Translations under genes and position numbers: made by a program
IMG/VR virus record: IMGVR_UViG_3300008110_000102
Span: 1 to 48,489 of that record
Reading direction: 5' to 3' (one strand)
DNA: 48,489 nucleotides
Source of the DNA: a virus
Shown: positions 1,635-46,141 of the stretch, in pieces
Numbering within the stretch: the first letter of the stretch is position 1
How the letters are laid out: each line of letters starts with the position of its first letter
Notes under the pieces: model-generated
Database searches by the model: none
Seen by the model: the letters and a program-made list of their open reading frames with translations, nothing else
Told to the model about the DNA's origin: nothing

Positions 1635-1899
1635 TTTTGCCTACACTGATGGTGAACTTAAGGAAAATCCACACAAACATCTTTGTAGGATTAATTGGAA
1701 TATCGCAGTAATTCTTAAAACAAGTTCTGCTGATAGTGTATTGAGCTTAATAGCAAGATACTTTAAAGTACCGGACCACATCATAGATAATGTTGATGAG
1801 CTAGCAGATTTTATGGTTATCAATAACTATTCTGATTGGTCTATCACAAGACTTAGCAATCATGCTTGGGTCTTAAAATATGGAGAAAGAAATGACTGA
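1627..1899 (+). CDS. Hypothetical protein
   Basis: A 90-residue protein of unknown function. GGAG lies about eight bases before the ATG, and both ends overlap the neighbouring genes, which supports it as a real operon member. It contains no evident transmembrane segment or metal motif. The C-terminal end overlaps the start of the GapR-like gene, whose ribosome binding site lies inside this coding region. Confidence 0.5.
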   Translation: MNNFAYTDGELKENPHKHLCRINWNIAVILKTSSADSVLSLIARYFKVPDHIIDNVDELADFMVINNYSDWSITRLSNHAWVLKYGERND

Positions 1900-2131
1900 A
1901 GTAAGCAAAAGATTAGAAAGCTATATCTCAAGATTAGAAAATTTACATGAAGAAGTGAAAGCTCTTAAAGGTGATATTAAGCTTGTATTAAAAGAAGCTA
2001 AAGGTGAAGGTCTTGAACCAAAAGCATTAAAAGCGATTGTGTCTATGAAGAAAAAAGGCCTAGAAACAGTTAGAGAAGAGATGACAGTTGTAGAGATGTA
2101 CTGTAGTGCTATCGGAATTGAAATCTTATAA
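1892..2131 (+). CDS. GapR-like DNA-binding protein (DUF2312)
   Basis: A 79-residue, highly charged, all-helical protein. It matches the DUF2312/GapR pattern: an N-terminal 'RLESYISRLENLHEE' coiled-coil helix, a 'DIKLVLKEAKGEG' helix and a 'KALKAIVSMKKK' helix, followed by a short C-terminal helix. GapR is a small nucleoid protein of alphaproteobacteria that clamps overtwisted DNA ahead of polymerases and aids topoisomerases. An in-frame ATG lies at 1880, but GGAG at 1882-1885 sits correctly before the ATG at 1892, and family members begin like this. A phage copy suggests an alphaproteobacterial host and a role in replication or transcription of phage DNA. Family assignment is from pattern recognition. 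Confidence 0.8.
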   Translation: MTEVSKRLESYISRLENLHEEVKALKGDIKLVLKEAKGEGLEPKALKAIVSMKKKGLETVREEMTVVEMYCSAIGIEIL

Positions 2132-2216: not shown

Positions 2217-2546
2217 ATGGATCCGATTGTAGAAACAATACTTGATGAGTACTTTAATAAAGAAGTAGTACCAAACAACAATGCTTTAGTCTATTATGAA
2301 GTTAGAGTATTAGATGAGTCTATAAAGTTAACTGATACTATCTTTTTAACACATAGAATGGCTGCTGAATTTATTAAAGGCTATAAAAGTCATCATGGAA
2401 TTGGTGAAGATGATATATCAAAGTTCAGGATAGCAAGAAAACAATTTATAGTTGGATGTGACTTATATTTAGTTATGCAAAGCTTAATGAAAGGTAGAGC
2501 ATATTATCATACCAAAAGAAATTTAAATTTGGTAGAGACAAAATAA
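2217..2546 (+). CDS. Hypothetical protein
   Basis: A 109-residue, acidic-to-neutral protein with no recognised family or motif. Only a weak purine-rich sequence (AGAAAG) precedes the ATG. Its last codons include the first of the TTGGTAGAGACA repeats, so coding and repeat overlap. It is the last gene before the AT-rich island, and its A/T content already rises relative to the upstream genes. Confidence 0.45.
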   Translation: MDPIVETILDEYFNKEVVPNNNALVYYEVRVLDESIKLTDTIFLTHRMAAEFIKGYKSHHGIGEDDISKFRIARKQFIVGCDLYLVMQSLMKGRAYYHTKRNLNLVETK

Positions 2547-2634
2547 CTAATAAAATCAAAATGGTAGAGCTAAATTGGTAGAGAGCTTTGTATATAGATG
2601 ATAAAAAATTGGTAGAGACATCTTGGTAGAGACC
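2529..2634 (+). repeat. TTGGTAGAGACA repeat cluster, left
   Basis: The dodecamer TTGGTAGAGACA occurs at 2529-2540 and 2609-2620, TTGGTAGAGACC at 2623-2634, TTGGTAGAGAG at 2575-2585, and a shorter TGGTAGAGC at 2562-2570. The same dodecamer returns as a pair at 3554 and 3578. All copies have the same orientation and sit upstream of island genes. They look like binding or promoter elements rather than a CRISPR, because spacing is irregular and the repeats are short. Confidence 0.75.
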
Positions 2635-3029
2635 TATTCTTGCTACGACAGAGTGGACACTATACACATGCTATTTATTCAAATACATATCAAAAATGTA
2701 TCAAATAAACATAAAAGGTGTATAAAAAGTACATAAAAAGTGTATAAAATTATATATACCTTATATGGAAAGGTTCCCATGTAATTGTATCAAATTTTAT
2801 CCATTAATATAAATACATGCATGAAAAAATTTAATCAACCTATATTTTTATTCACCCTTTTACATATAATATAATGTGTGATGATGAATAATTTTTTTTT
2901 CACTACCATACATTTTTTTATTGCAATCCTCATCACAATCATGCATATTGTTTTTATGAACATGAATCACACAACAATTAAAACATGTTCATATTAACAT
3001 CAACCATCAAACATGAAATGAAAAAAATT
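2547..3029 (+). other. AT-rich leader region before the island HTH gene
   Basis: About 480 bases with no convincing gene. It holds the right part of the left TTGGTAGAGACA cluster, then an AT tract with repeated ATACAT/ATGTAT words (about 2681-2760), then a poly-T stretch followed by TTGCA (about 2890-2925), and finally a purine-rich sequence before the ATG at 3030. The same order of elements recurs at 3551-3920 before the next ORF, so I read this as a promoter/regulatory module. An in-frame ATG at 2985 would add 15 residues to the HTH gene. Confidence 0.45.
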
Positions 3030-3497
3030 ATGAAAAATGCAATCAAAATTGAAACAACCCCTGTTGTTAAAACCAAAAAAACCCCTAATCAAAAATTGCC
3101 TAAACATCCTAACCCTGTTGCTGATGCACCTGATGTTTTGCCTAATACCTCCATCACTGACACATTACCTATTGTGTCACCTATATCAAATTTAATTGAA
3201 TTTGAAACATTTAAACATTTTGAAAATATCAAAAATTTTATTGAAACAAACAATCAACCTTTCATTAAATTAACACAAATTGCAAAAATCATTGATTGTG
3301 ATGCAAAAACATTGCGACAAAAATTCCGCAAAATTTATTCAATTTTTGATATGAATAAATTGCCACAAATTATTGCATCAAAAAATGACAATGAAAAATG
3401 GATTTTTGAATTTAATGAAAAAAACATGCATGATTTATTAAAAATGTCATATATGCAAAACATTAAAATTGAAATGCCATTGTCACAAATTGCATAA
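3030..3497 (+). CDS. Helix-turn-helix DNA-binding protein of the island
   Basis: A 155-residue protein. Residues 1-60 are Lys/Pro-rich and probably disordered. Residues about 80-130 hold a helix-turn-helix of the small phage type: 'LTQIAKIIDCDAKTLRQKF' followed by a 'KWIFEF' strand, comparable to the HTH in the genes at 8627 and 36178. The only codons that break the local rule 'G only after T' encode Arg96 (CGA), Arg100 (CGC) and Trp124 (TGG), which are the expected conserved HTH and wing residues. This argues for a functional protein under selection. Gly is absent. Start: an in-frame ATG at 2985 is possible; I prefer 3030, preceded by an A-rich leader like those of the next ORFs. It may bind the TTGGTAGAGACA repeats (inference). 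Confidence 0.65.
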   Translation: MKNAIKIETTPVVKTKKTPNQKLPKHPNPVADAPDVLPNTSITDTLPIVSPISNLIEFETFKHFENIKNFIETNNQPFIKLTQIAKIIDCDAKTLRQKFRKIYSIFDMNKLPQIIASKNDNEKWIFEFNEKNMHDLLKMSYMQNIKIEMPLSQIA

Positions 3498-3550
3498 TGA
3501 TAAAATGTGTGTTGTGTGATTCATATAAAATTGTGTCACACAACATTTTT

Positions 3551-3596
3551 AAATTGGTAGAGACATTTTTATGTAAATTGGTAGAGACATTTTTAT
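3551..3596 (+). repeat. TTGGTAGAGACA repeat pair, right
   Basis: Two copies of a 22-bp unit, AAA + TTGGTAGAGACA + TTTTTAT, at 3551-3572 and 3575-3596. They lie just after the island HTH gene and before the next ORF module. They contain AG and GG, so they are conspicuous exceptions to the local dinucleotide rule, which suggests that their sequence is held by selection. Confidence 0.75.
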
Positions 3597-3920
3597 ATAC
3601 ATATAAACATTAATATATATATTTATATACAATAATGTATGTATAAACATAAAATATATACAAAATACATACAAAATATGTATCAAATACAAATAAAATA
3701 TGTATAAAATTTATGTAAATTCATCAACCATTAAAATATACATAAAATATGTATTAAATACACCAATTTAATCATAATCACACAATTTGAAAATGTCAAT
3801 TAAAATCTTTATGTATGAATAAAATTATTTTTCATCATCATGCATTTTTTTGTTGCATTGTGAAAAATTTTTGTTATCATACATATATCAACAACACAAA
3901 CATGAATGTGAAAAAAAAAT
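3597..3920 (+). other. AT-rich leader region before the ORF at 3921
   Basis: About 320 bases without a gene. It contains many ATACAT and ATGTAT words that can pair with each other (about 3600-3770), a poly-T run followed by GTTGCA (about 3845-3857), and at 3902-3913 the word ATGAATGTGAAA, which recurs before the ORF at 4402. The element order copies that of the leader before 3030. No Shine-Dalgarno-like purine box is possible here because AG and GG are absent. Confidence 0.45.
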
Positions 3921-4361
3921 ATGACAAACACACAATGCATCATTATTTCATCATCAATTAATGAAAATGAAAAAAAATATTATTTATATTGTTTAAATGA
4001 TAAAAATGAAAAAAAATACATTAATGAATTGATGAAAAATAAAAAAATTAAAAATGATATTGCATACAATCATTTTAATCATAATGATATTACACAAAAT
4101 GAAATATTTTTGTGTGATGACACATTTGCACATATTTTTAATTTTATTGATGATTATGATGTTAATGATGATGATGATTGTGATACATTATATGAAAAAT
4201 CAATGCAATCATTAAAAAAATATCATTATGTTGTTTTTAAAACAAAAAATCATGCATTGCATCATTTGATAAATTTAATGTATATGTATGACAAAACACA
4301 AATGACAATAAAAAATGATAAAAATTATGATTATGATAATTTATTTGTTACAATCAATTAA
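3921..4361 (+). CDS. Island ORF of restricted amino acid alphabet (A)
   Basis: A 146-residue ORF, no family recognised. It contains no Arg, Gly, Pro or Trp, because the DNA has no AG, GG, CC or CG. A further effect is visible: every Asp, Glu, Val and Ala codon must follow a codon ending in T, so Glu-Glu, Lys-Asp or Lys-Glu pairs do not occur. It is rich in Asn, Asp, Lys, Tyr and Ile, with an acidic patch near residues 76-86. The start ATGACAA resembles those of the ORFs at 4402 and 4932. The length of the open frame in such AT-rich DNA and the shared leader support real coding, but a product is not proven. Confidence 0.5.
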   Translation: MTNTQCIIISSSINENEKKYYLYCLNDKNEKKYINELMKNKKIKNDIAYNHFNHNDITQNEIFLCDDTFAHIFNFIDDYDVNDDDDCDTLYEKSMQSLKKYHYVVFKTKNHALHHLINLMYMYDKTQMTIKNDKNYDYDNLFVTIN

Positions 4362-4401
4362 CACAAAAAAAACAACAATTAAAATGAATGTGAAACATAA
4401 T

Positions 4402-4824
4402 ATGACAACACAAATTACAAATGAAACAATTAAAAAAATTGATATTGATGATATTGATTTTTCAATCATTTATGATGATTTTAAAACAATTTTTCATAAT
4501 ATTGATGAAAATTACAATGAATATGAAAATGATTTTGTTTATCATTTTATAAAATTGTATGATGCACAACAATTTCATCAATTCATCATTGATTATTATT
4601 ATATTTTAAAATTATATGATGAATATAAAATCACAAAATCAAATGATTTTTTTGATGATTTATATATCATAAATAATATTGATTTTTATGATGATGCAAC
4701 AAATTGTATTTTATCACAAATTGATGATGATAATGATGTGTCATTTGATTACATCACAACAATCATGCAATTTGATAAAAATGATGTATGTGATATATTA
4801 TTTAACAACATTGTGAATGTGTGA
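4402..4824 (+). CDS. Island ORF of restricted amino acid alphabet (B)
   Basis: A 140-residue ORF, very acidic, rich in Asp, Ile, Tyr, Phe and Asn, with no Arg, Gly, Pro or Trp. The open frame extends upstream to 4315, but the ATG at 4402 has the same surroundings as that of ORF A: ATGAATGTGAAA 18 bases before, then TATGACAA. Runs such as 'DIDDIDFSIIYDDF' obey the DNA rule that G follows only T. It ends with TGA; TAG is impossible here. An acidic, aromatic-rich small protein could be a DNA mimic or an inhibitor that binds basic proteins, but this is speculation. Confidence 0.5.
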   Translation: MTTQITNETIKKIDIDDIDFSIIYDDFKTIFHNIDENYNEYENDFVYHFIKLYDAQQFHQFIIDYYYILKLYDEYKITKSNDFFDDLYIINNIDFYDDATNCILSQIDDDNDVSFDYITTIMQFDKNDVCDILFNNIVNV

Positions 4825-4827
4825 TTT

Positions 4828-4917
4828 ATGAACATTGATAAAATGATTAATGTAATGATGATTATCAACATGACAATGTTTGTTGTGCATATCATCACAA
4901 ACAATTTCAACATATAA
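4828..4917 (+). CDS. Possible tiny hydrophobic peptide
   Basis: A 29-codon ORF that begins four bases after the TGA of the preceding ORF and ends fifteen bases before the next likely start. The peptide is rich in Met, Ile and Val and could lie in a membrane. Its tight fit between neighbours is the only support, and such short frames arise easily in this DNA. Confidence 0.2.
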   Translation: MNIDKMINVMMIINMTMFVVHIITNNFNI

Positions 4918-4931
4918 AAATGTGTGCAATT

Positions 4932-5243
4932 ATGACAATCCCACAATTATCAATCAAAATTAAATCATTTATATTATTTATTTGTGATGTTGAATATCAA
5001 AATGATGATGAAACATACACAAATGAAATTGTTAAATATAAATATAAATGTGAATTAACATTATATGAATACAAACAATTATTGTTTAATGATGTTGTGT
5101 TGTTATCATCATTGAATGATGAACATCCATTCATAAATGTTTATGAAAATAATGACTTTGATTGTTGTGAAACAAAAATAAATGTTATGTTAATTGATGA
5201 ATATAATTATAATCAATTACATGATTGTATTATCATTAAATAA
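4932..5243 (+). CDS. Island ORF (C), hypothetical
   Basis: A 103-residue ORF of unknown family, beginning with TATGACAA like ORFs A and B. An in-frame ATG at 4920 would add four residues. It lacks Arg, Gly and Trp. Two Pro codons (near residues 4 and 62) account for two of the rare CC words in this part of the island. It is acidic, with Cys at several places, including a Cys-Cys pair near the C-terminus. No motif recognised. Confidence 0.45.
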   Translation: MTIPQLSIKIKSFILFICDVEYQNDDETYTNEIVKYKYKCELTLYEYKQLLFNDVVLLSSLNDEHPFINVYENNDFDCCETKINVMLIDEYNYNQLHDCIIIK

Positions 5244-5302
5244 TAATTAATACATTACATAATAATTATGCATCATGTTTAAATATGTGATGCATTTTTA
5301 TT

Positions 5303-5479
5303 TGTTTATATATTTACAATTTTATATAATCTTTATACATATATGATATGTTATTGATATGTGTTTATATATTTACAATTTTATATAATCTTTATACATA
5401 TATGATATGTATTTAATATGTGTTTATATATTTACAATTTTATATAATCTTTATACATATATGATATGTTATTGATATG
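5303..5479 (+). repeat. Three tandem copies of a 59-bp AT-rich repeat
   Basis: Units at 5303-5361, 5362-5420 and 5421-5479 are nearly identical; the middle copy differs near its end (ATTTAA where the others have TTATTGA). Each unit begins TGTTTATATATTTACA and contains TATAATC, CTTTATAC and the palindrome CATATATG. The repeat closes the island; ordinary sequence resumes at about 5497. Tandem AT-rich iterons suggest a replication origin or a partition-like or regulatory site; no function is shown by sequence alone. Confidence 0.9.
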
Positions 5480-5587
5480 TATTTGAAACAAATGTGTCTC
5501 GCCATCTACCCATACCCACCACCCATTCATTGTCAAGCACAAAACTTAGGGGATAGATGTAAGAGAAATTATTACTTGGCCAAAGTA

Positions 5588-5616
5588 TTGTAACAATTAG
5601 GTTCAAAAAATTATAA
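5588..5616 (+). promoter_or_regulatory. Putative sigma-70-like promoter for the DUF932 gene
   Basis: TTGTAA at 5588-5593 and TTATAA at 5611-5616 are separated by 17 bases, about 85 bases upstream of the ATG at 5702. The 200 bases between the tandem repeats and the gene hold no other feature I can support. Confidence 0.4.
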
Positions 5617-5701
5617 GGGTAAAACTTACTATAGGAAAAAATCTTGTATCCCTATGATTTCTTATCTATTATATTCTTATCACTTAAACAAAGGAGTTCT
5701 T

Positions 5702-7535: not shown

Positions 7536-7772
7536 TTATTGTTCTGTGTTTAAAACGTCTTTTAAATGACCATTCTCAGGGTAGTTCTTAAGGAATTCGT
7601 TATAGTCAAAGCCATTAAGGTCAAACGCTATCCTCCAAGCATCATGTGTCTGTCCCTGTAGTTTCTCTGTACTAAGACCTCTATACTTTTTATCTGTCTT
7701 TTCCATTTTCAGGAATACTAAGTCTCTAAGTGACTTAGCCACCCGTGTATTATAGTCTAATTCTGTAGTCAT
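7536..7772 (-). CDS. Hypothetical protein
   Basis: A 78-residue charged protein with no family recognised. GAGGAG, which includes the stop region of the ligase gene, lies seven bases before its ATG, so it is probably translated from the same message as the ligase. Confidence 0.5.
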   Translation of the reverse strand: MTTELDYNTRVAKSLRDLVFLKMEKTDKKYRGLSTEKLQGQTHDAWRIAFDLNGFDYNEFLKNYPENGHLKDVLNTEQ

Positions 7773-39646: not shown

Positions 39647-40604
39647 CTTTGGTTTCTCTCTTTTCTATTTTATACTGACCTTTTATAATCATGTCCACAT
39701 CTGAGCCGGTCAGCTCAGCTCTACAGATAGGTTCATAGTCACACCACTTGCAGTGCATTCCAATGTTCTTAACCTTTTTCTTTCCATGATTCTCTATTAA
39801 TTCTTGGGCACTGTCAATAAAATCTTTATAAACAGACTCCACGATATTCTGGTTAATTGGTGTGAATACCCTCATAAAGTAATTGGGTATGTTTTGTTGA
39901 GCAGCATCAATAAGCTTCTTGGAGAAGTTAGGGTCATAGCCTTGTTCTTCAGCATACCTACGAATAACACTCGGTAATGTATTCAATTTAGCTTCTGATA
40001 ATTTGCCGCTTTTTAGTATCTTGGGAACCTCGGGTGAACCACTGTGAATATAATCCCAGCACATCCCGTCAGCCTCACCTAAACCAGTTATCTGTAGTGC
40101 TTTTAGATATACCGCTGACTGAATGTTTCTCCACCTTTCATCATTCTCAGGCATCCTTTTAAAGGTCTTATGCTCAACAATCCATAATAGCTTATTAGGT
40201 GTTTTAGCTATAGCATCTATTTTACCATTAAAGATAATACCATCAGCTATCTCTATATTAAACTCATGCTCAGCATAACGATTACCTCTTCTAAGATACA
40301 TCAGTGAGTCATCACCCCAGTACTCAAAGTACTCAGTCATAATGCTGCGAACATCCTCTATAATATCGCCATATAGCTCAAACTCTGCTTCGAACATCTT
40401 ACCTTTCTCAGCCTGTATAGCGTCTAGCTTTTTGAAGGGGTCTCTATTGTTAGCATACTCCTCAATAAGCTCATGCACTATACCACCAAAGGTAAATGGT
40501 CTTTTAACCACTTTTTTCTTCAGGAACTCCACATACTTCTGATGATAGGCGAATTGGCATTGACGCCAAGTCTTGATTTTTGATTGACTTACTTTGATAG
40601 CCAT
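39630..40604 (-). CDS. Cas4/RecB-like PD-(D/E)XK nuclease
   Basis: A 324-residue nuclease. 'SQSKIKTWRQCQFAYHQKYV' is the typical N-terminal motif with one Cys, 'FGGIVHELIEEYA' gives the His, 'GKIDAIAKT' the Asp and 'WIVEHKTFK' the Glu-x-Lys catalytic pair. The C-terminal 'HCKWCDYEPICR' has three Cys, which with the N-terminal one would bind an iron-sulfur cluster. Function: 5'-3' or end-processing nuclease in recombination. It begins with ATGGCTATCAAAG, shared in another frame with the end of the polymerase gene. Confidence 0.88.
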   Translation of the reverse strand: MAIKVSQSKIKTWRQCQFAYHQKYVEFLKKKVVKRPFTFGGIVHELIEEYANNRDPFKKLDAIQAEKGKMFEAEFELYGDIIEDVRSIMTEYFEYWGDDSLMYLRRGNRYAEHEFNIEIADGIIFNGKIDAIAKTPNKLLWIVEHKTFKRMPENDERWRNIQSAVYLKALQITGLGEADGMCWDYIHSGSPEVPKILKSGKLSEAKLNTLPSVIRRYAEEQGYDPNFSKKLIDAAQQNIPNYFMRVFTPINQNIVESVYKDFIDSAQELIENHGKKKVKNIGMHCKWCDYEPICRAELTGSDVDMIIKGQYKIEKRETKDENPK

Positions 40605-43069
40605 TTTTCTAAACTAACCCCTTTACTCCATGGACCAATCTGTGCTTCACCTAAAATTGGTACCCTAAGGTCAACACCAAAGTCTTTTAATAGGTCAGGG
40701 CCAGACATCACCTGTAGTATTCTATTATACACTTCTTGAACATACTCATCCTTGACTAAGAACATAGTAGCGTCATGGACAGTACCAATAACCCTTACTT
40801 TATCTACACTGTACTCTTTAGAGATTTGTAGTGCTGTCATAAGATTAAGGTCGTTAGCGAATGATTGAACAGGTGAGTTGATTGCTTGTCTTTCAGCTTC
40901 TTTCTTACCTGGTGTGTCATAAGCAGCCTTAGCTTCTGGTAATCTTCTTCTTCTACCAATAAGGCTTTCTACATAACCGTGTCTTCTTACAAAGCGTTTT
41001 TGGTCATTGTGCCAATTAACAAACTCTGGATACAATTCGAAGAATGCATCACGGCTAGCTTTAGCTTCTTCATCAGTAACTGTTACTCCATAGTTGTCAC
41101 GAGCATAGTCTTTAAACTTTACCCACCACATACCATATAAGAAACCAAAATTAATAGCTTTAGCTTTCTTTCTTAATTCTTTCCAGCCTTTATCAAACTC
41201 TTGAGCTTTCTCAGGACCATACTTTAATAGTACCTGTATAGCTTCACCATAGTTAATTGGCTTATCAAGTATGGTTTTCTCATATTTCTTTATTAAACAA
41301 GTAGCTGTATGTTTGATTAAGTCAGGCTCACTACCCTGTCTACCCAATTCTCTTATCAATGTAAGCCAGTGAACATCCACGTTTGTAGCAAACGCATGTA
41401 GCATTGTTGTTTCATTAGCTACCTCAGCCGCTACCCTTAACTCAATTTGTGAAAGGTCGGCATCTATTAATTGCCAGCCTTCGGGTGCTGTAATCAATGA
41501 CCTAATTCTTGGGTCTCTAGGTACTTGCTGTAGGTTAGGTCGTTCACATGATAATCTACCAGTTACAGTACCATGCAGTTTAAAGCTTGGATGTAGTCTA
41601 CTATCTACAATAAAAGGTTTCCAACCTTCAATGAAAGCACTCAGCTGTTTTGATGCTTCCCGGTATCGTAGGAGCGATGCACACATTGGATGGTCTATCT
41701 GTTTAATAACAGACTCGCTTGTAGCTCTACCACCTTTAGGTGTATATGATACTACAGGTATCTTAAGCTTATCATAGAGTAGCTCACCAAGCTGTTTAGG
41801 TGAATTCCAGTTTGTACCTGGTCCCCACTTCTCAAGTACCTTTAGTGCCTCAGTAAGCTCATTCTTGAGGTAATCCTCAGCATCTTGCATACGAGACAAG
41901 TCAATATAGATACCATAGTATTCAATGCTGATAAAGAGTCGTGCACATGGCATGATGATCTTATCAAATACCTTCTTAGTTTTTGGTTCTTTTGATAGCC
42001 TTCTACTGAAGATGTAGTATAGCTTTAATGTGTATAGTAAATCTAATCCATGATACTTTGAGACTACTTCTAATGTACCCTTTATTTTGTCTTCACCACC
42101 AATATCATAGTTAGGTGCACCACAGTAAATAGAGGATAGGTATTTTAGGCCATGTTGACTATTCTCATCTAATGCATAGTGAGCCATCATCGTATCAAAG
42201 TCTAAGTACCAATCTACATCGTAGTGTACTTTCATCCAAAGCATATCAAACTTGCCATTATGTGCTACAAGTATGCAATCATCAAGCTTAACTGTTAGCT
42301 CTTTTATGATAGCTTTTCTATTGCGATGACCCCACAGTGAGTACTGCTTAGCAAGGGGTATCGACCATTGATAATTCTTAGTGCCGAAGCCAATAAAGTT
42401 AATCTCTGCACCATTGTCCCAAGGATACAACCCTGTAGTCTCAATATCAAAAGAGATAACACCACTCAGGTCAGCTAACATCTCATCAAAGGTATCATCG
42501 TCATTTACAACCCTAAGATTGAGTGATTCCTCTTCTAATAGCCCACCATTCATTATGATGCTATTAAATGTGGATATATCAGCTTCAACTACCGAAGAAA
42601 GTGCTGGGTCATAGACGAGGTTACTGATTGAATAGGTTGGCATATATACTATATCGTTAACCTTCGTAGGTTTACCTCTAGCTTTCTTTATGCCTTTTAT
42701 ACCTAATGCTGCTTGCAATGCTACGTTGCCAAAAAGCAGAATGAATTGTGGTTTTACTAACTCTATTTCTTTCTCTAGCCAATACCTGCAAGCATTTATC
42801 TCTGTCTTTGTTGGTTCTTTGTCACCTGGCTTTCTACAGTGAACTGCATAGGTATAATAATAGTCTTGTATACCGGCACTGGATAGCAGGTCGTGAACAT
42901 TCTGACCATACTTACTACTGTAGGCTCTATCACACTCATCATCAGCTTTAGATGGCGAGTCAATGATAACCATTATCTTTGACTTAATATCTGTAGAATA
43001 GTTACCTAATAAGCATACGCTTTGGCAACCCGATGAAAGCTTGCATCTACTGCAATTAATATCCCTCAT
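40589..43069 (-). CDS. polA: Family A DNA polymerase with UDG-like N-terminal domain
   Basis: An 826-residue replicative polymerase. Residues 1-170 resemble uracil-DNA glycosylase family 4: the four iron-sulfur Cys are kept (Cys6, Cys9, Cys78, Cys94), but the catalytic 'GEAPG' loop reads 'IDSPSK' and the His of the 'HPA' motif is lost, so glycosylase activity is doubtful. Residues about 195-370 are a 3'-5' exonuclease ('SFDIETTGLYPW', 'LVAHNGKFDMLWM'). The polymerase domain has motif A 'DADLSQIELR', motif B 'RKKAKAINFGFLYG' and motif C 'GTVHDATMF' (HDA rather than HDE). Starts with ATGA overlap to the dCMP deaminase stop. Confidence 0.93.
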   Translation of the reverse strand: MRDINCSRCKLSSGCQSVCLLGNYSTDIKSKIMVIIDSPSKADDECDRAYSSKYGQNVHDLLSSAGIQDYYYTYAVHCRKPGDKEPTKTEINACRYWLEKEIELVKPQFILLFGNVALQAALGIKGIKKARGKPTKVNDIVYMPTYSISNLVYDPALSSVVEADISTFNSIIMNGGLLEEESLNLRVVNDDDTFDEMLADLSGVISFDIETTGLYPWDNGAEINFIGFGTKNYQWSIPLAKQYSLWGHRNRKAIIKELTVKLDDCILVAHNGKFDMLWMKVHYDVDWYLDFDTMMAHYALDENSQHGLKYLSSIYCGAPNYDIGGEDKIKGTLEVVSKYHGLDLLYTLKLYYIFSRRLSKEPKTKKVFDKIIMPCARLFISIEYYGIYIDLSRMQDAEDYLKNELTEALKVLEKWGPGTNWNSPKQLGELLYDKLKIPVVSYTPKGGRATSESVIKQIDHPMCASLLRYREASKQLSAFIEGWKPFIVDSRLHPSFKLHGTVTGRLSCERPNLQQVPRDPRIRSLITAPEGWQLIDADLSQIELRVAAEVANETTMLHAFATNVDVHWLTLIRELGRQGSEPDLIKHTATCLIKKYEKTILDKPINYGEAIQVLLKYGPEKAQEFDKGWKELRKKAKAINFGFLYGMWWVKFKDYARDNYGVTVTDEEAKASRDAFFELYPEFVNWHNDQKRFVRRHGYVESLIGRRRRLPEAKAAYDTPGKKEAERQAINSPVQSFANDLNLMTALQISKEYSVDKVRVIGTVHDATMFLVKDEYVQEVYNRILQVMSGPDLLKDFGVDLRVPILGEAQIGPWSKGVSLEKWLSK

Positions 43070-43530
43070 GGCATTATCACCTTATTATTGGAATGGTCAA
43101 GTAAATACCCAGATGGAGTAATTTGGTATACTTCTATACCGCTTTTAATGAGTAGAGCTAATGATGTAGTATCTCTATATGCTACTTCATAATATACAAC
43201 CTTAATACCTGCAGCTATTAATTTTTCAGCACACATAGGGCAAGGTGAATGAGTTACATAAAGCGACTTATCCTTAGGCCACTCACTATTAGGTATAAAC
43301 CTTATAGCATTGTCTTCAGCATGAATTGTTTTAGTGCATCCACCACTAGATGACAATGGACAGTCATTACCTTTACAGTGTTCTTCACCAGAGGGTGAAC
43401 CATTATAGCCAATAGATACTACTCGGTTTTCTACAACTATAACACATCCCACATTTAATCGATGACAAGTGGAACGTTTTGAAGCTGAGCGAGCCATCTC
43501 CATAAACATCTGGTTACGGCTTATTCTCAT
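43066..43530 (-). CDS. dCMP deaminase
   Basis: A 154-residue zinc deaminase. 'KTIHAEDNAI' carries His70 and the catalytic Glu72, and 'SPCPMC' the zinc ligands Cys97 and Cys100. An additional Cys/His set (His51, Cys52, Cys57, Cys65) corresponds to the second zinc site of phage T4-type dCMP deaminases. It converts dCMP to dUMP, the substrate of ThyX. In the same operon as two thymidylate-synthase-fold enzymes and the kinase/pyrophosphatase fusion. Confidence 0.9.
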   Translation of the reverse strand: MRISRNQMFMEMARSASKRSTCHRLNVGCVIVVENRVVSIGYNGSPSGEEHCKGNDCPLSSSGGCTKTIHAEDNAIRFIPNSEWPKDKSLYVTHSPCPMCAEKLIAAGIKVVYYEVAYRDTTSLALLIKSGIEVYQITPSGYLLDHSNNKVIMP

Positions 43531-43535
43531 ATTGC

Positions 43536-44381
43536 TTACTTTATTGGAGGTTGGCCAAACAGTCTTATATAGTCATTAGCGAATAGGTGAAGACTTACAA
43601 TATGCATCGTAAATAGACCTGGTCTTATTTTACCCCAATACTCAGGGTTTTTAAGTCGTAGCTGGTCAAGTACCCATAACTGTAGTAATACTGTAAGATA
43701 AATATCATCTCTAAAGTGTCTTACAAAGTCACATGACCTTAGGTAGTAGGTAATATGAAGCATATCCTGCCTAACTATAAAATGATACCCTAAGGTACAT
43801 GGCATTCTACCACCATTAACTGCACCAGTGTCTTCAGGAAAAAATATAGGTAGATATGCTTGTCTTGTTAGTGGTTGTTCTCTTAATAGATTAACTACAT
43901 CATTAAGGTCGCCAAGACAGCTATTTTGTCTTATACCCCTATTAAAGTTTGATGGGTCATACTCTGGATGATTGGGGTCAAACATGGTTTCTCTAAGCTC
44001 GCCTTGGTCTGTTAGTCCAGCGTATCTAGGCCAATATCTTTCCATGTAGTTATGATTGAATTGTCCATTATCATCACGGAATTTATCAGCTGAATGACTG
44101 TAAGGCCAGTTTGCCCATTCTACACCTGGATTGATTGGTTCACCACATACTCTTTCCTTAAAGTGGTCATCAGCCCATGGTAAATTTGGCTTAATCTCTT
44201 CAGCTAATAATGTTCTATCCTCAGTCCATACACGAGCAGTAAATGAGAAATTCAGTATCTCATAAGTAGCCATAGCATTTTGTTTAGATATATCAATACC
44301 TTGCCATTTTTCGGTGTGAACCCTACAGGAGTTGTCTTTAAGCTTTAGCTTAGCGTCTTCTATGTATACATCAAAGCCCAT
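43536..44381 (-). CDS. TS-fold enzyme, probable dCMP hydroxymethylase (1)
   Basis: A 281-residue protein of the thymidylate synthase superfamily. The catalytic Cys is Cys195 in 'RMPCTLGYHF', the phosphate and substrate site is 'YLRSCDF' (Arg215, Ser216, Asp218), and 'MHIVSLHLFAND' matches the His/Tyr block. Aligning 'RSCDFVRHFRDDIY' with ThyA 'RSADVFLGVPFNIA' puts Asp226 where ThyA has the Asn that selects dUMP. In T4 gp42 the equivalent Asp selects dCMP. I therefore favour 5-hydroxymethylation of dCMP over dTMP synthesis; phage databases usually call such proteins thymidylate synthase. ThyX near the right end would supply dTMP. Confidence 0.72.
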   Translation of the reverse strand: MGFDVYIEDAKLKLKDNSCRVHTEKWQGIDISKQNAMATYEILNFSFTARVWTEDRTLLAEEIKPNLPWADDHFKERVCGEPINPGVEWANWPYSHSADKFRDDNGQFNHNYMERYWPRYAGLTDQGELRETMFDPNHPEYDPSNFNRGIRQNSCLGDLNDVVNLLREQPLTRQAYLPIFFPEDTGAVNGGRMPCTLGYHFIVRQDMLHITYYLRSCDFVRHFRDDIYLTVLLQLWVLDQLRLKNPEYWGKIRPGLFTMHIVSLHLFANDYIRLFGQPPIK

Positions 44382-45144
44382 TTAGGTAATCCTTTGCTAC
44401 TTTTACTATTCTTCTTGTTTCTGCTGGATAAAGTAGTGACCTTGCTTTGTCTCGTGTAACAGTGGCTTGCTTAAACTTTAATATGCCCCTATCATCATCG
44501 AGATACTTTAAGGTCCACTTCATCACATGCCTTGTAAACCTATCATCTTTATCCAATGCCCTAAAGAACTCAATAGGTGACTCATGTAAGGCAGCTGCTG
44601 TAAGAAAGTACATTGGATGGAGAGTGATATTTGCAAAGTGACAATTTACACTCTTTAGCTTAACGTCTGTAAAATTAAAACCTGGTAATAGGTTGTTGTA
44701 GATAAAGTACAGGTCAGCTGGAAACTTTTTAAATAGCTCAGTCGTTCTATAGAATATGTCTACCTCAGCAGTCTCTTTATCTAGATAGGATATTACTACA
44801 GACTGTAGACATGGCCCTCTTGTACTTACCTTCTCAAGTGGTGATGTTGCACCAGGCTTTATAAGGTGATTGTAGCAGTGGAATGAGGTACTAGCATACT
44901 TACCTCTTGCTATAAAGTAATCCCACATCTGAATAGCCTTTTTATAGCTTTCATCATGTAGGTAAAGCTTTTTAAGCATGGTAATCTTGGTCTTTGTATA
45001 ACCAATATCCTGTAGAGTCATATCAGACGTGGGTGACTCAAACCTTATGGTTCTTGAGCGAAATATTTTCCTCTCAGAAGCATATAAGTCACCAGGCTGA
45101 CCAACAAAGGATAGACAGGCTTCTAGCCATTGATTAGTCAGCAT
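44371..45144 (-). CDS. TS-fold enzyme, possible dCMP hydroxymethylase (2)
   Basis: A 257-residue protein, distant from the previous one. The superfamily pattern is recognisable: 'RGPCLQSVVISYL' with Cys112 as likely nucleophile, then 'FYRTTELFKKFPADLYF', where Arg133, Glu136 and Asp144 align with Arg166, Asp169 and Asn177 of ThyA, and 'VNCHFANITLHPMYF' as the His-containing block. Asp at the Asn177 position again points to a cytosine nucleotide substrate. Glu replacing Asp169 is unusual. It could be an active second enzyme or a partner subunit. Overlaps both neighbours by about ten bases. Confidence 0.6.
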   Translation of the reverse strand: MLTNQWLEACLSFVGQPGDLYASERKIFRSRTIRFESPTSDMTLQDIGYTKTKITMLKKLYLHDESYKKAIQMWDYFIARGKYASTSFHCYNHLIKPGATSPLEKVSTRGPCLQSVVISYLDKETAEVDIFYRTTELFKKFPADLYFIYNNLLPGFNFTDVKLKSVNCHFANITLHPMYFLTAAALHESPIEFFRALDKDDRFTRHVMKWTLKYLDDDRGILKFKQATVTRDKARSLLYPAETRRIVKVAKDYLNGL

Positions 45145-46141
45145 TAACTATACCTCCTTTAAAGATACTTACAAGATTGTCGATGTTGTTCTGAACTTCT
45201 TCTGGCTCACTTGCTGTTTCAGCTACAAACTCAGAACCTTTCAATAAATCCATAAGTACTGGGGCTTTCCAGCCCTCAGGTTTAACAACATCAAGTGCAG
45301 AACCCCTCTTACTTTGAGAGCTATCTGTAGCACGGACTTTAGCCATATTAGCTGCATGAACTCTCCTCCAACCTTCAATGAATGGAAAACCATGTAGATA
45401 GGATGTACCAAACAAGACATAAGCTAAATCTATAAGACCGTCAAAGGCTTTTTCTAGATGGACTAATGTTTCTTGTGGTTCATACCCTGATAAGCCAGGT
45501 TGTTTAAGTGATAGGTGATGATTGTTCATAGCTTCAACATACTCATCTAGCTCTTCATGCATGAACTTTATTCTAAAGTCTTCAACTTGTTCTGGTAATG
45601 CACGAACACCATCTTCATAAGCTAGACCAAACTTCTGATGAAATAATGCTACATCAAGTACCGGGTTAAAAGCTATTACTCTGCTCAGCAGGTCAGGGAC
45701 ACTATCACCAATACGATAGATAAGGTGTGCATTATTCAATGCCCAATCATCATACTCAGCGGTAAGTGCATCATACTTCTCGTCAATTAGCTTAACATAT
45801 TCCGGCTCATCATAGTCTTTATTGATATGACCATTCATTCTGTTAAGTGCTTTGCAGTAAATAAAGATGGGCTTCTCTCTGTAGAATTGGTCGATAAGGT
45901 CGTCATCAACCTTGGTGTTCTTCACTATTAATGAGTATATTAGCTGAGACACTACAGGGTGTCTATCATAAATAATTGGCTTAGGGTCATCAAGGTATCG
46001 CTTAACTCGTTCGTTGATTTCACCTGGATATTTTTCTCTACCTTCACTATGCTTAACTGGTATGTTAAATGCTTCTGATAGGATTTTAGCCAGTGTTGAT
46101 TTACCAGAGTTGTCTGGGCCTTCAAGAACTATAATAGTCAT
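45134..46141 (-). CDS. dNMP kinase fused to MazG-like pyrophosphatase
   Basis: A 335-residue two-domain protein. Residues 1-165 are a deoxynucleotide monophosphate kinase of thymidylate-kinase type: Walker A 'GPDNSGKST' (8-16) and a 'YDRHPVVSQLIY' lid/base-binding motif. Residues about 175-295 are an all-alpha NTP pyrophosphatase (MazG/dCTPase-like): 'HEELDEYVEAM' and 'EKAFDGLIDLAYV' make the EExxE...ExxD metal site, followed by 'RVHAANMAKVR'. In T4 the separate enzymes gp1 (kinase for hm-dCMP) and gp56 (dCTPase) do these two jobs. First gene of the leftward operon, so all modification functions are made early together. Substrates are inferred. Confidence 0.78.
   Translation of the reverse strand: MTIIVLEGPDNSGKSTLAKILSEAFNIPVKHSEGREKYPGEINERVKRYLDDPKPIIYDRHPVVSQLIYSLIVKNTKVDDDLIDQFYREKPIFIYCKALNRMNGHINKDYDEPEYVKLIDEKYDALTAEYDDWALNNAHLIYRIGDSVPDLLSRVIAFNPVLDVALFHQKFGLAYEDGVRALPEQVEDFRIKFMHEELDEYVEAMNNHHLSLKQPGLSGYEPQETLVHLEKAFDGLIDLAYVLFGTSYLHGFPFIEGWRRVHAANMAKVRATDSSQSKRGSALDVVKPEGWKAPVLMDLLKGSEFVAETASEPEEVQNNIDNLVSIFKGGIVNAD

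Follow-up and report, generated by a model that had tools for sequence, protein, structure and literature searches.

The locus and its genes

The stretch of DNA analyzed here (the window, positions 1 to 48,489 of IMG/VR record IMGVR_UViG_3300008110_000102) comes from a siphovirus-type phage whose terminase is about 58% identical to those of phages YuA and M6, and whose replication module has 34-57% identity with its counterpart in Brevundimonas phage Polewnik; its host is probably an alphaproteobacterium. Toward the left end lies a small group of genes and repeats, the island, in which G is found almost only after T and C almost only before A (Table 1). A gene for a GapR-like AT-rich-DNA-binding protein stands just upstream, and a counterpart adjoins the island of the related phage L006 (6872-7123). 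GapR matches were found in several further alphaproteobacterial phages, and all phages of the collection with such a match infect alphaproteobacteria; phage GapR was termed first seen in an Erythrobacter phage (PMC12185513).

The island of the window is built of two units, each having TTGGTAGAGAC repeats, an 11-bp AT array, a 30-bp conserved element (TTTTTCAYYMYCATNCATTTTTTTRTTGCA) and ORFs, and its operon ends in a rule-obeying intrinsic terminator, as do those of L006 and a third phage, L008. The tract at the right edge is C-rich and G-poor in all three (9300-9354 in L006, 820-910 in L008), its composition kept while its sequence has diverged; it could be a Rho site, or the source of a G-rich leftward RNA. 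Between the island and a DUF932 gene, positions 5534-5653 are non-coding and well conserved, with a 24-mer identical in every contig of the group. Rfam and tRNA searches gave no match.

The four island ORFs (107-170 aa, all on the + strand) are real genes; in Markov sequences with the same dinucleotides the longest ORF averages 75 aa. A helix-turn-helix-like stretch of ORF1 resembles an ordinary one from another phage, with 0 of 500 shuffles as good. Structure models of ORF1 and ORF3 reached a mean pLDDT of 39 and 48, too poor for structure search.

At the other end of the window is a gene set pointing to base modification. Alignment with MilA and the L. casei thymidylate synthase entry 1njc places Asp at the dCMP-specific position of a thymidylate-synthase-like protein that is 54-55% identical to those of Brevundimonas phages Polewnik and Strzyga. 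PF01503, PF00383/PF14437 and DNA ligase co-occur in the phage, and such a domain set is found on modified-cytosine contigs (PMC8670742). The preliminary description of this DNA had predicted a modified-cytosine phage, which is probable given the hydroxymethylase-like protein with its dCMP-type Asp, the dCMP deaminase and PF01503; on this gene content, the phage DNA likely contains modified cytosine. The scanned genes of the window and of L024, part of a related genome, included no transferase for 5-hydroxymethylcytosine. The segment of L024 at 2384-4298, absent from the window, encodes ThyX, a NikA-like small protein and a pyrimidine-dimer glycosylase. In the window, 40589-43069 encodes a family A DNA polymerase that has a 3'-5' exonuclease domain and carries a fused uracil-DNA-glycosylase domain, and 44371-45144 encodes a protein that also neighbors the hydroxymethylase-like gene in Brevundimonas, Pseudomonas and other phages, and is possibly a partner in base modification.

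Table 1. Features of the window discussed in the text
Feature	Position	Strand	Remarks
GapR-like AT-rich-DNA-binding protein gene	1880..2131	+	PF10073, E 1.9e-19
TTGGTAGAGAC cluster upstream of first unit	2529..2633	+	4 copies, one with mismatch; also in L006 at about 7560-7625
11-bp AT-rich repeat array, left end	2680..2750	+	
G solely after T (template-strand C solely before A)	2774..5500	+	exceptions: three codons and two repeats
Conserved element TTTTTCAYYMYCATNCATTTTTTTRTTGCA	2896..2925	+	precedes ORF1
ORF1, 170 aa, HTH-like domain	2985..3497	+	63% identity to L006 homologue
C nearly always before A	about 3190..5330	+	scattered exceptions
Second TTGGTAGAGAC cluster	3554..3588	+	2 copies; sole non-coding G-rule violations inside island
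Second 11-bp AT-rich array	3600..3760	+	3' of second TTGGTAGAGAC cluster
Strict core, without AG, GG, CG, CC, CT	3809..4939	.	
Conserved element TTTTTCAYYMYCATNCATTTTTTTRTTGCA	3828..3857	+	precedes ORF2
ORF2, 146 aa	3921..4361	+	no relatives found
ORF3, 169 aa	4315..4824	+	homologues in L006 and L008 islands, 35-48% identity
ORF4, 107 aa	4920..5243	+	no relatives found
Intrinsic terminator, rule-obeying spelling	5268..5295	+	counterparts in L006 and L008
59-bp tandem array, right end	5299..5487	-	inverted relative to left arrays
C-rich, G-poor boundary tract	5501..5533	+	C-rich in L006 and L008 too
dCMP deaminase	43066..43530	-	
Thymidylate-synthase-like gene, probable dCMP hydroxymethylase	43536..44381	-	Asp at dCMP-specific position
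P-loop kinase and PF01503 pyrophosphohydrolase	45134..46141	-	

A two-base rule on both strands

The strict core was originally described as free of AG, GG, CG, CC and CT, and counting bears this out: all five are at 0, where shuffles keeping the composition of 3809-4939 contain a mean of 119 such dinucleotides and at least 98, and have no rule-clean stretch longer than 83 bases. Comparison with shuffled sequence, which the preliminary description had proposed, thus sets the island well apart, and among the further phage loci checked, some on contigs of 32-34% GC, the longest clean stretch is 90 bases. The six exceptions first reported for 3597-5330 correspond to 7 violating dinucleotides at 6 places. 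With the islands of the three phages pooled, C/(C+T) is 49% before A (40% in the remainder of the window), as against 4.6, 0.3 and 1.2% before C, G and T, and G/(G+A) is 49.5% after T and 0.3-0.5% after A, C or G. Because C makes up 49% before A and 0.3-4.6% elsewhere, the island sequence is not AT-biased, and the original argument that simple AT-richness cannot explain it holds; the low GC of the island is a consequence of the ban. Since TG is the complement of CA, the G and C halves are one rule, C always followed by A, read on two strands. The ban spans genes, spacers and terminator alike, and third-order words in the island reveal no further strong constraint.

Depending on the criterion, the island measures 1.5-2.7 kb overall, and for 1.1-1.9 kb of it the rule has hardly an exception. 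On the template (-) strand the ban extends further than on the + strand. Within 2777-3185, 33 of 33 G follow T (p about 1e-16), yet half of the 82 C precede a base other than A, and the flanks of the L006 and L008 islands have the same strand difference. The rule had been taken to run from 2937 on, alike on both strands; this is correct for G after T, and fails for C before A in 2937-3190, where every G follows T and CC and CT are frequent. Across 2774-5500, the exceptions to G after T are three codons and the TTGGTAGAGAC repeats at 3554-3588, and no G violation was found in the non-coding island parts outside these repeats.

The effect on the encoded proteins is severe. Glycine codons number 0 of 1051 island codons in the three phages, AAG, CAG and GAG are likewise at 0, and Asp, Glu, Val and Ala nearly always follow a residue that has a codon ending in T. 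Arg and Trp have no rule-obeying codon at all, and the G-rule violations in ORF1 are exclusively Arg111, Arg115 and Trp139, which match Arg, Arg and Trp in the L006 homologue; both arginines are AGA there and CGA/CGC in the window. The C rule is broken 41 times in the window ORFs and 0 times in those of L006, being looser in the window's ORF1, in whose N-terminal part Pro and Thr are abundant. Judged from these sequences, the ban outranks protein sequence, its G half yielding only to conserved-domain Arg and Trp codons and to a repeat.

A stricter mRNA-sense strand is what selection at the RNA level would also produce, if transcripts may contain G solely after U and C solely before A, for instance to evade a ribonuclease, and antisense transcription makes the rule two-stranded. 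The sole non-coding violations, in TTGGTAGAGAC, precede the units, where promoters would sit, and the terminators are conserved, both as such a reading would have it. Against it, the G rule continues for about 200 bp beyond the terminator, and the half-rules complement each other exactly, something that RNA alone would not demand; we know of no antisense transcription of the island. Selection on RNA is therefore regarded as improbable, and is placed behind the alternatives considered below.

Related phages, and purging or conversion

In L006 (IMG/VR 3300042475_004015), homologues of ORF1 and ORF3 occupy the same locus, preceded by TTGGTAGAGAC repeats and followed by the DUF932 gene, and the rule is kept over 1.3-1.6 kb. 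The L006 contig has 128-bp end repeats, and its 62.6-kb genome is therefore closed (complete and circular); it contains a single island. L008 includes the right half of an island with a further diverged ORF3, rule kept, and L007, nearly the same strain as the window, has no mismatch to it across 1.9 kb of island. Outside the island, DNA identity among these phages is about 70-82% in aligned parts. An in-frame tandem duplication of an ORF3 segment (LQFDQNDQCDELFNNI), also rule-obeying, is present in L008 at 435-545. The more distant high-GC DUF932 phages are without an island, and none was found in the other GapR- or DUF932-bearing phages checked or in M6, YuA, Polewnik and MW202777. Searches for further islands by a conserved 20-mer, the repeat pair and ORF profiles gave only chance matches outside the phage group (L016, L018, L020, L028). 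A mobile element was considered and rejected, the island being confined to one locus within one phage group, with no matches at other loci or in unrelated genomes.

These relatives bear directly on mis-assembly, raised at the outset as a possible refutation and very unlikely given related contigs from other metagenomes. Together with contamination, or modified cytosines misread as T, it would make the pattern an artefact, and it is true that the L007 and L008 contigs terminate within the island and that the phage may carry modified C. The same island and rule at the same locus in the diverged L006 and L008 mean that no assembly error is involved; both junctions are spanned in the window and in L006, the L007 island equals that of the window without mismatch, and the related islands come from other metagenomes. 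Open ORFs, matching terminator hairpins and Arg and Trp codons retained where the proteins need them also speak against an artefact of any kind, which is highly improbable.

Two simulated equilibrium models were compared, one in which violation-creating changes are rejected, and one in which violations arise and rapidly become T or A. For non-coding island dinucleotides (n = 1193), hard exclusion fits at a GC of 0.42 (2nKL 5; genome GC 0.39), and a fast C>T mutator is rejected even at its optimal setting (2nKL 84). When coding sequence is added, the values are 59 for exclusion and 92 for the mutator, neither being a full fit, as expected for coding DNA, and one-step C>T conversion of ordinary phage DNA also fits worse. 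Purging, that is, selection against violating sequence, is favored over base conversion within these two simple substitution schemes, because the non-coding island agrees with an ordinary phage composition under a hard ban and not with a simple C>T mutator. Context-dependent base conversion, put forward early as a cause, is accordingly disfavored (5 for exclusion against 84 for the mutator).

Targeted hypermutation nevertheless has attractive features. A cytosine deaminase-like activity would turn C before C, G or T (CpB) into T on both strands and spare CpA, with essential Arg and Trp rescued by protein selection; the sharp region, two strands and two-base context are as expected, a strong one-way mutator readily yields a digital pattern, and the phage itself encodes deaminase and uracil-glycosylase domains. 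At equilibrium, however, such an activity would deplete C before A and lift AA/TT to about 20%, whereas AA/TT in the non-coding island is 14.5%, and the window and L007 show no difference in the 1.9 kb island, though these are near-identical strains. To our knowledge, no deaminase spares C before A alone. Hypermutation is thus unlikely.

Possible agents and known systems

Another candidate cause is a demand of DNA structure or protein binding. The island would then be an origin or nucleoprotein domain, to which the phage GapR perhaps binds, and CpB steps would interfere there with binding, with unwinding or, as CT/CC-type primase sites, with replication. The inverted AT arrays at both ends, the repeat clusters, the adjoining GapR gene and the C-rich, G-poor boundary tract would suit such a domain. 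GapR recognizes how phosphates are spaced along the minor groove, with AT-rich DNA preferred (PMC8510090), and this preference gives no reason for C to be 49% before A and about 0% elsewhere. Weak short-range signals of helical periodicity of CA/TG occur in the L006 and L008 islands, but no 10-11 bp periodicity of these steps was found in the window's island, the largest, and cumulative skew shows no clear origin signal. A structural demand is rather unlikely; among the three rival readings, it stands after hypermutation and before RNA-level selection. Selection against many restriction sites, also suggested at the outset, is too loose an explanation, with GATC, CATG, TGCA and GTAC staying possible. 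The third early suggestion, a ban that serves the modified-cytosine DNA, may hold. Avoidance of known PAMs or restriction sites was rejected more generally, many 4- and 6-base sites still being possible under the rule.

The reading preferred here, tentatively and with a probability of about 0.3, is cytosine-context cleavage, which would purge non-CpA cytosines from DNA whose early transcription must stay unbroken, both agent and timing being inferred. The island would be a small operon region from which purifying selection strips nearly every C not before A on both strands, most strictly on the strand templating the island's genes. The agent would be an endonuclease, a nickase or a base-excising activity acting on C, probably modified, in CpC, CpG or CpT, and this region alone would have to remain intact if its genes are read before protection of the rest of the phage exists. 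A nick in the template strand halts transcription, and this would explain why the ban is stricter and wider there; cleavage or base removal would likewise cover the two-base rule, its regional limits and its presence on both strands. Retention of locus and rule in L006 and L008, despite ORF3 at 35-48% identity, argues for a purging ban. Against cleavage, no nuclease, deaminase or defense system with such two-base specificity was identified, the circular assembly of L006 shows no fixed end from which the island might enter first, and the G rule extends about 200 bp beyond the terminator. The remaining genome is full of CpB cytosines, and a special need of the island must therefore be assumed. 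A variant held to be doubtful has a surveillance activity (a host defense, or the phage's own host-degrading nuclease) reading C by its 3' neighbor alone, with the phages rewriting a whole early operon in response, even to glycine-free proteins.

No account of such an island was found in the literature searched, with subscription journals largely outside its scope, and comparison is with partial likenesses. The modified-cytosine phages of MetaGPA (eLife 2021, PMC8670742), Polewnik and Strzyga share the thymidylate-synthase-like gene with the dCMP-type Asp, dCMP deaminase, PF01503 and DNA ligase; Polewnik and MW202777 differ in lacking the island. For the Pseudomonas phages M6 and YuA, hypermodified thymidine in TG/TC context has been described (PMC6449724). 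Besides the terminase, the likeness is that their preferred TG is the context retained in the island; the differences are that they have no island and that the M6 thymidine-modification genes are unmatched, the dUMP hydroxymethylase and 5hmdU kinase (gp54, gp58) giving no tblastn match at E 0.01 in the window or G001. M6-type hypermodification as a direct cause was therefore set aside, suggestive as the TG context is.

Repeat-induced point mutation (RIP) of fungi and AID/APOBEC editing are also regional, C-centered and guided by a two-base context. RIP destroys CpA, the only context that the island keeps, and AID/APOBEC enzymes read the 5' side of C; for both, the island spectrum misfits a mutator equilibrium. 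The pre-early (first-step-transfer) DNA of phage T5 is free of EcoRI sites, and here too avoidance of a presumed cleavable sequence is limited to one region, as the single island in the complete L006 genome illustrates. The T5 region is read early and encodes protection for the remainder, and the island may be read early as well; T5 lacks one 6-base site, whereas the island retains a single cytosine context. Known site avoidance by phages concerns four- to six-base words and also takes the form of a statistical tendency. The island's ban applies to two-base words, holds nearly without exception for 1.1-1.9 kb and dictates what its proteins can contain, and it has persisted between phages whose island proteins share 35-63% identity. 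Such a ban is the mark of strong selection by an as yet unnamed agent, and provides an exact sequence specificity with which to search for it.
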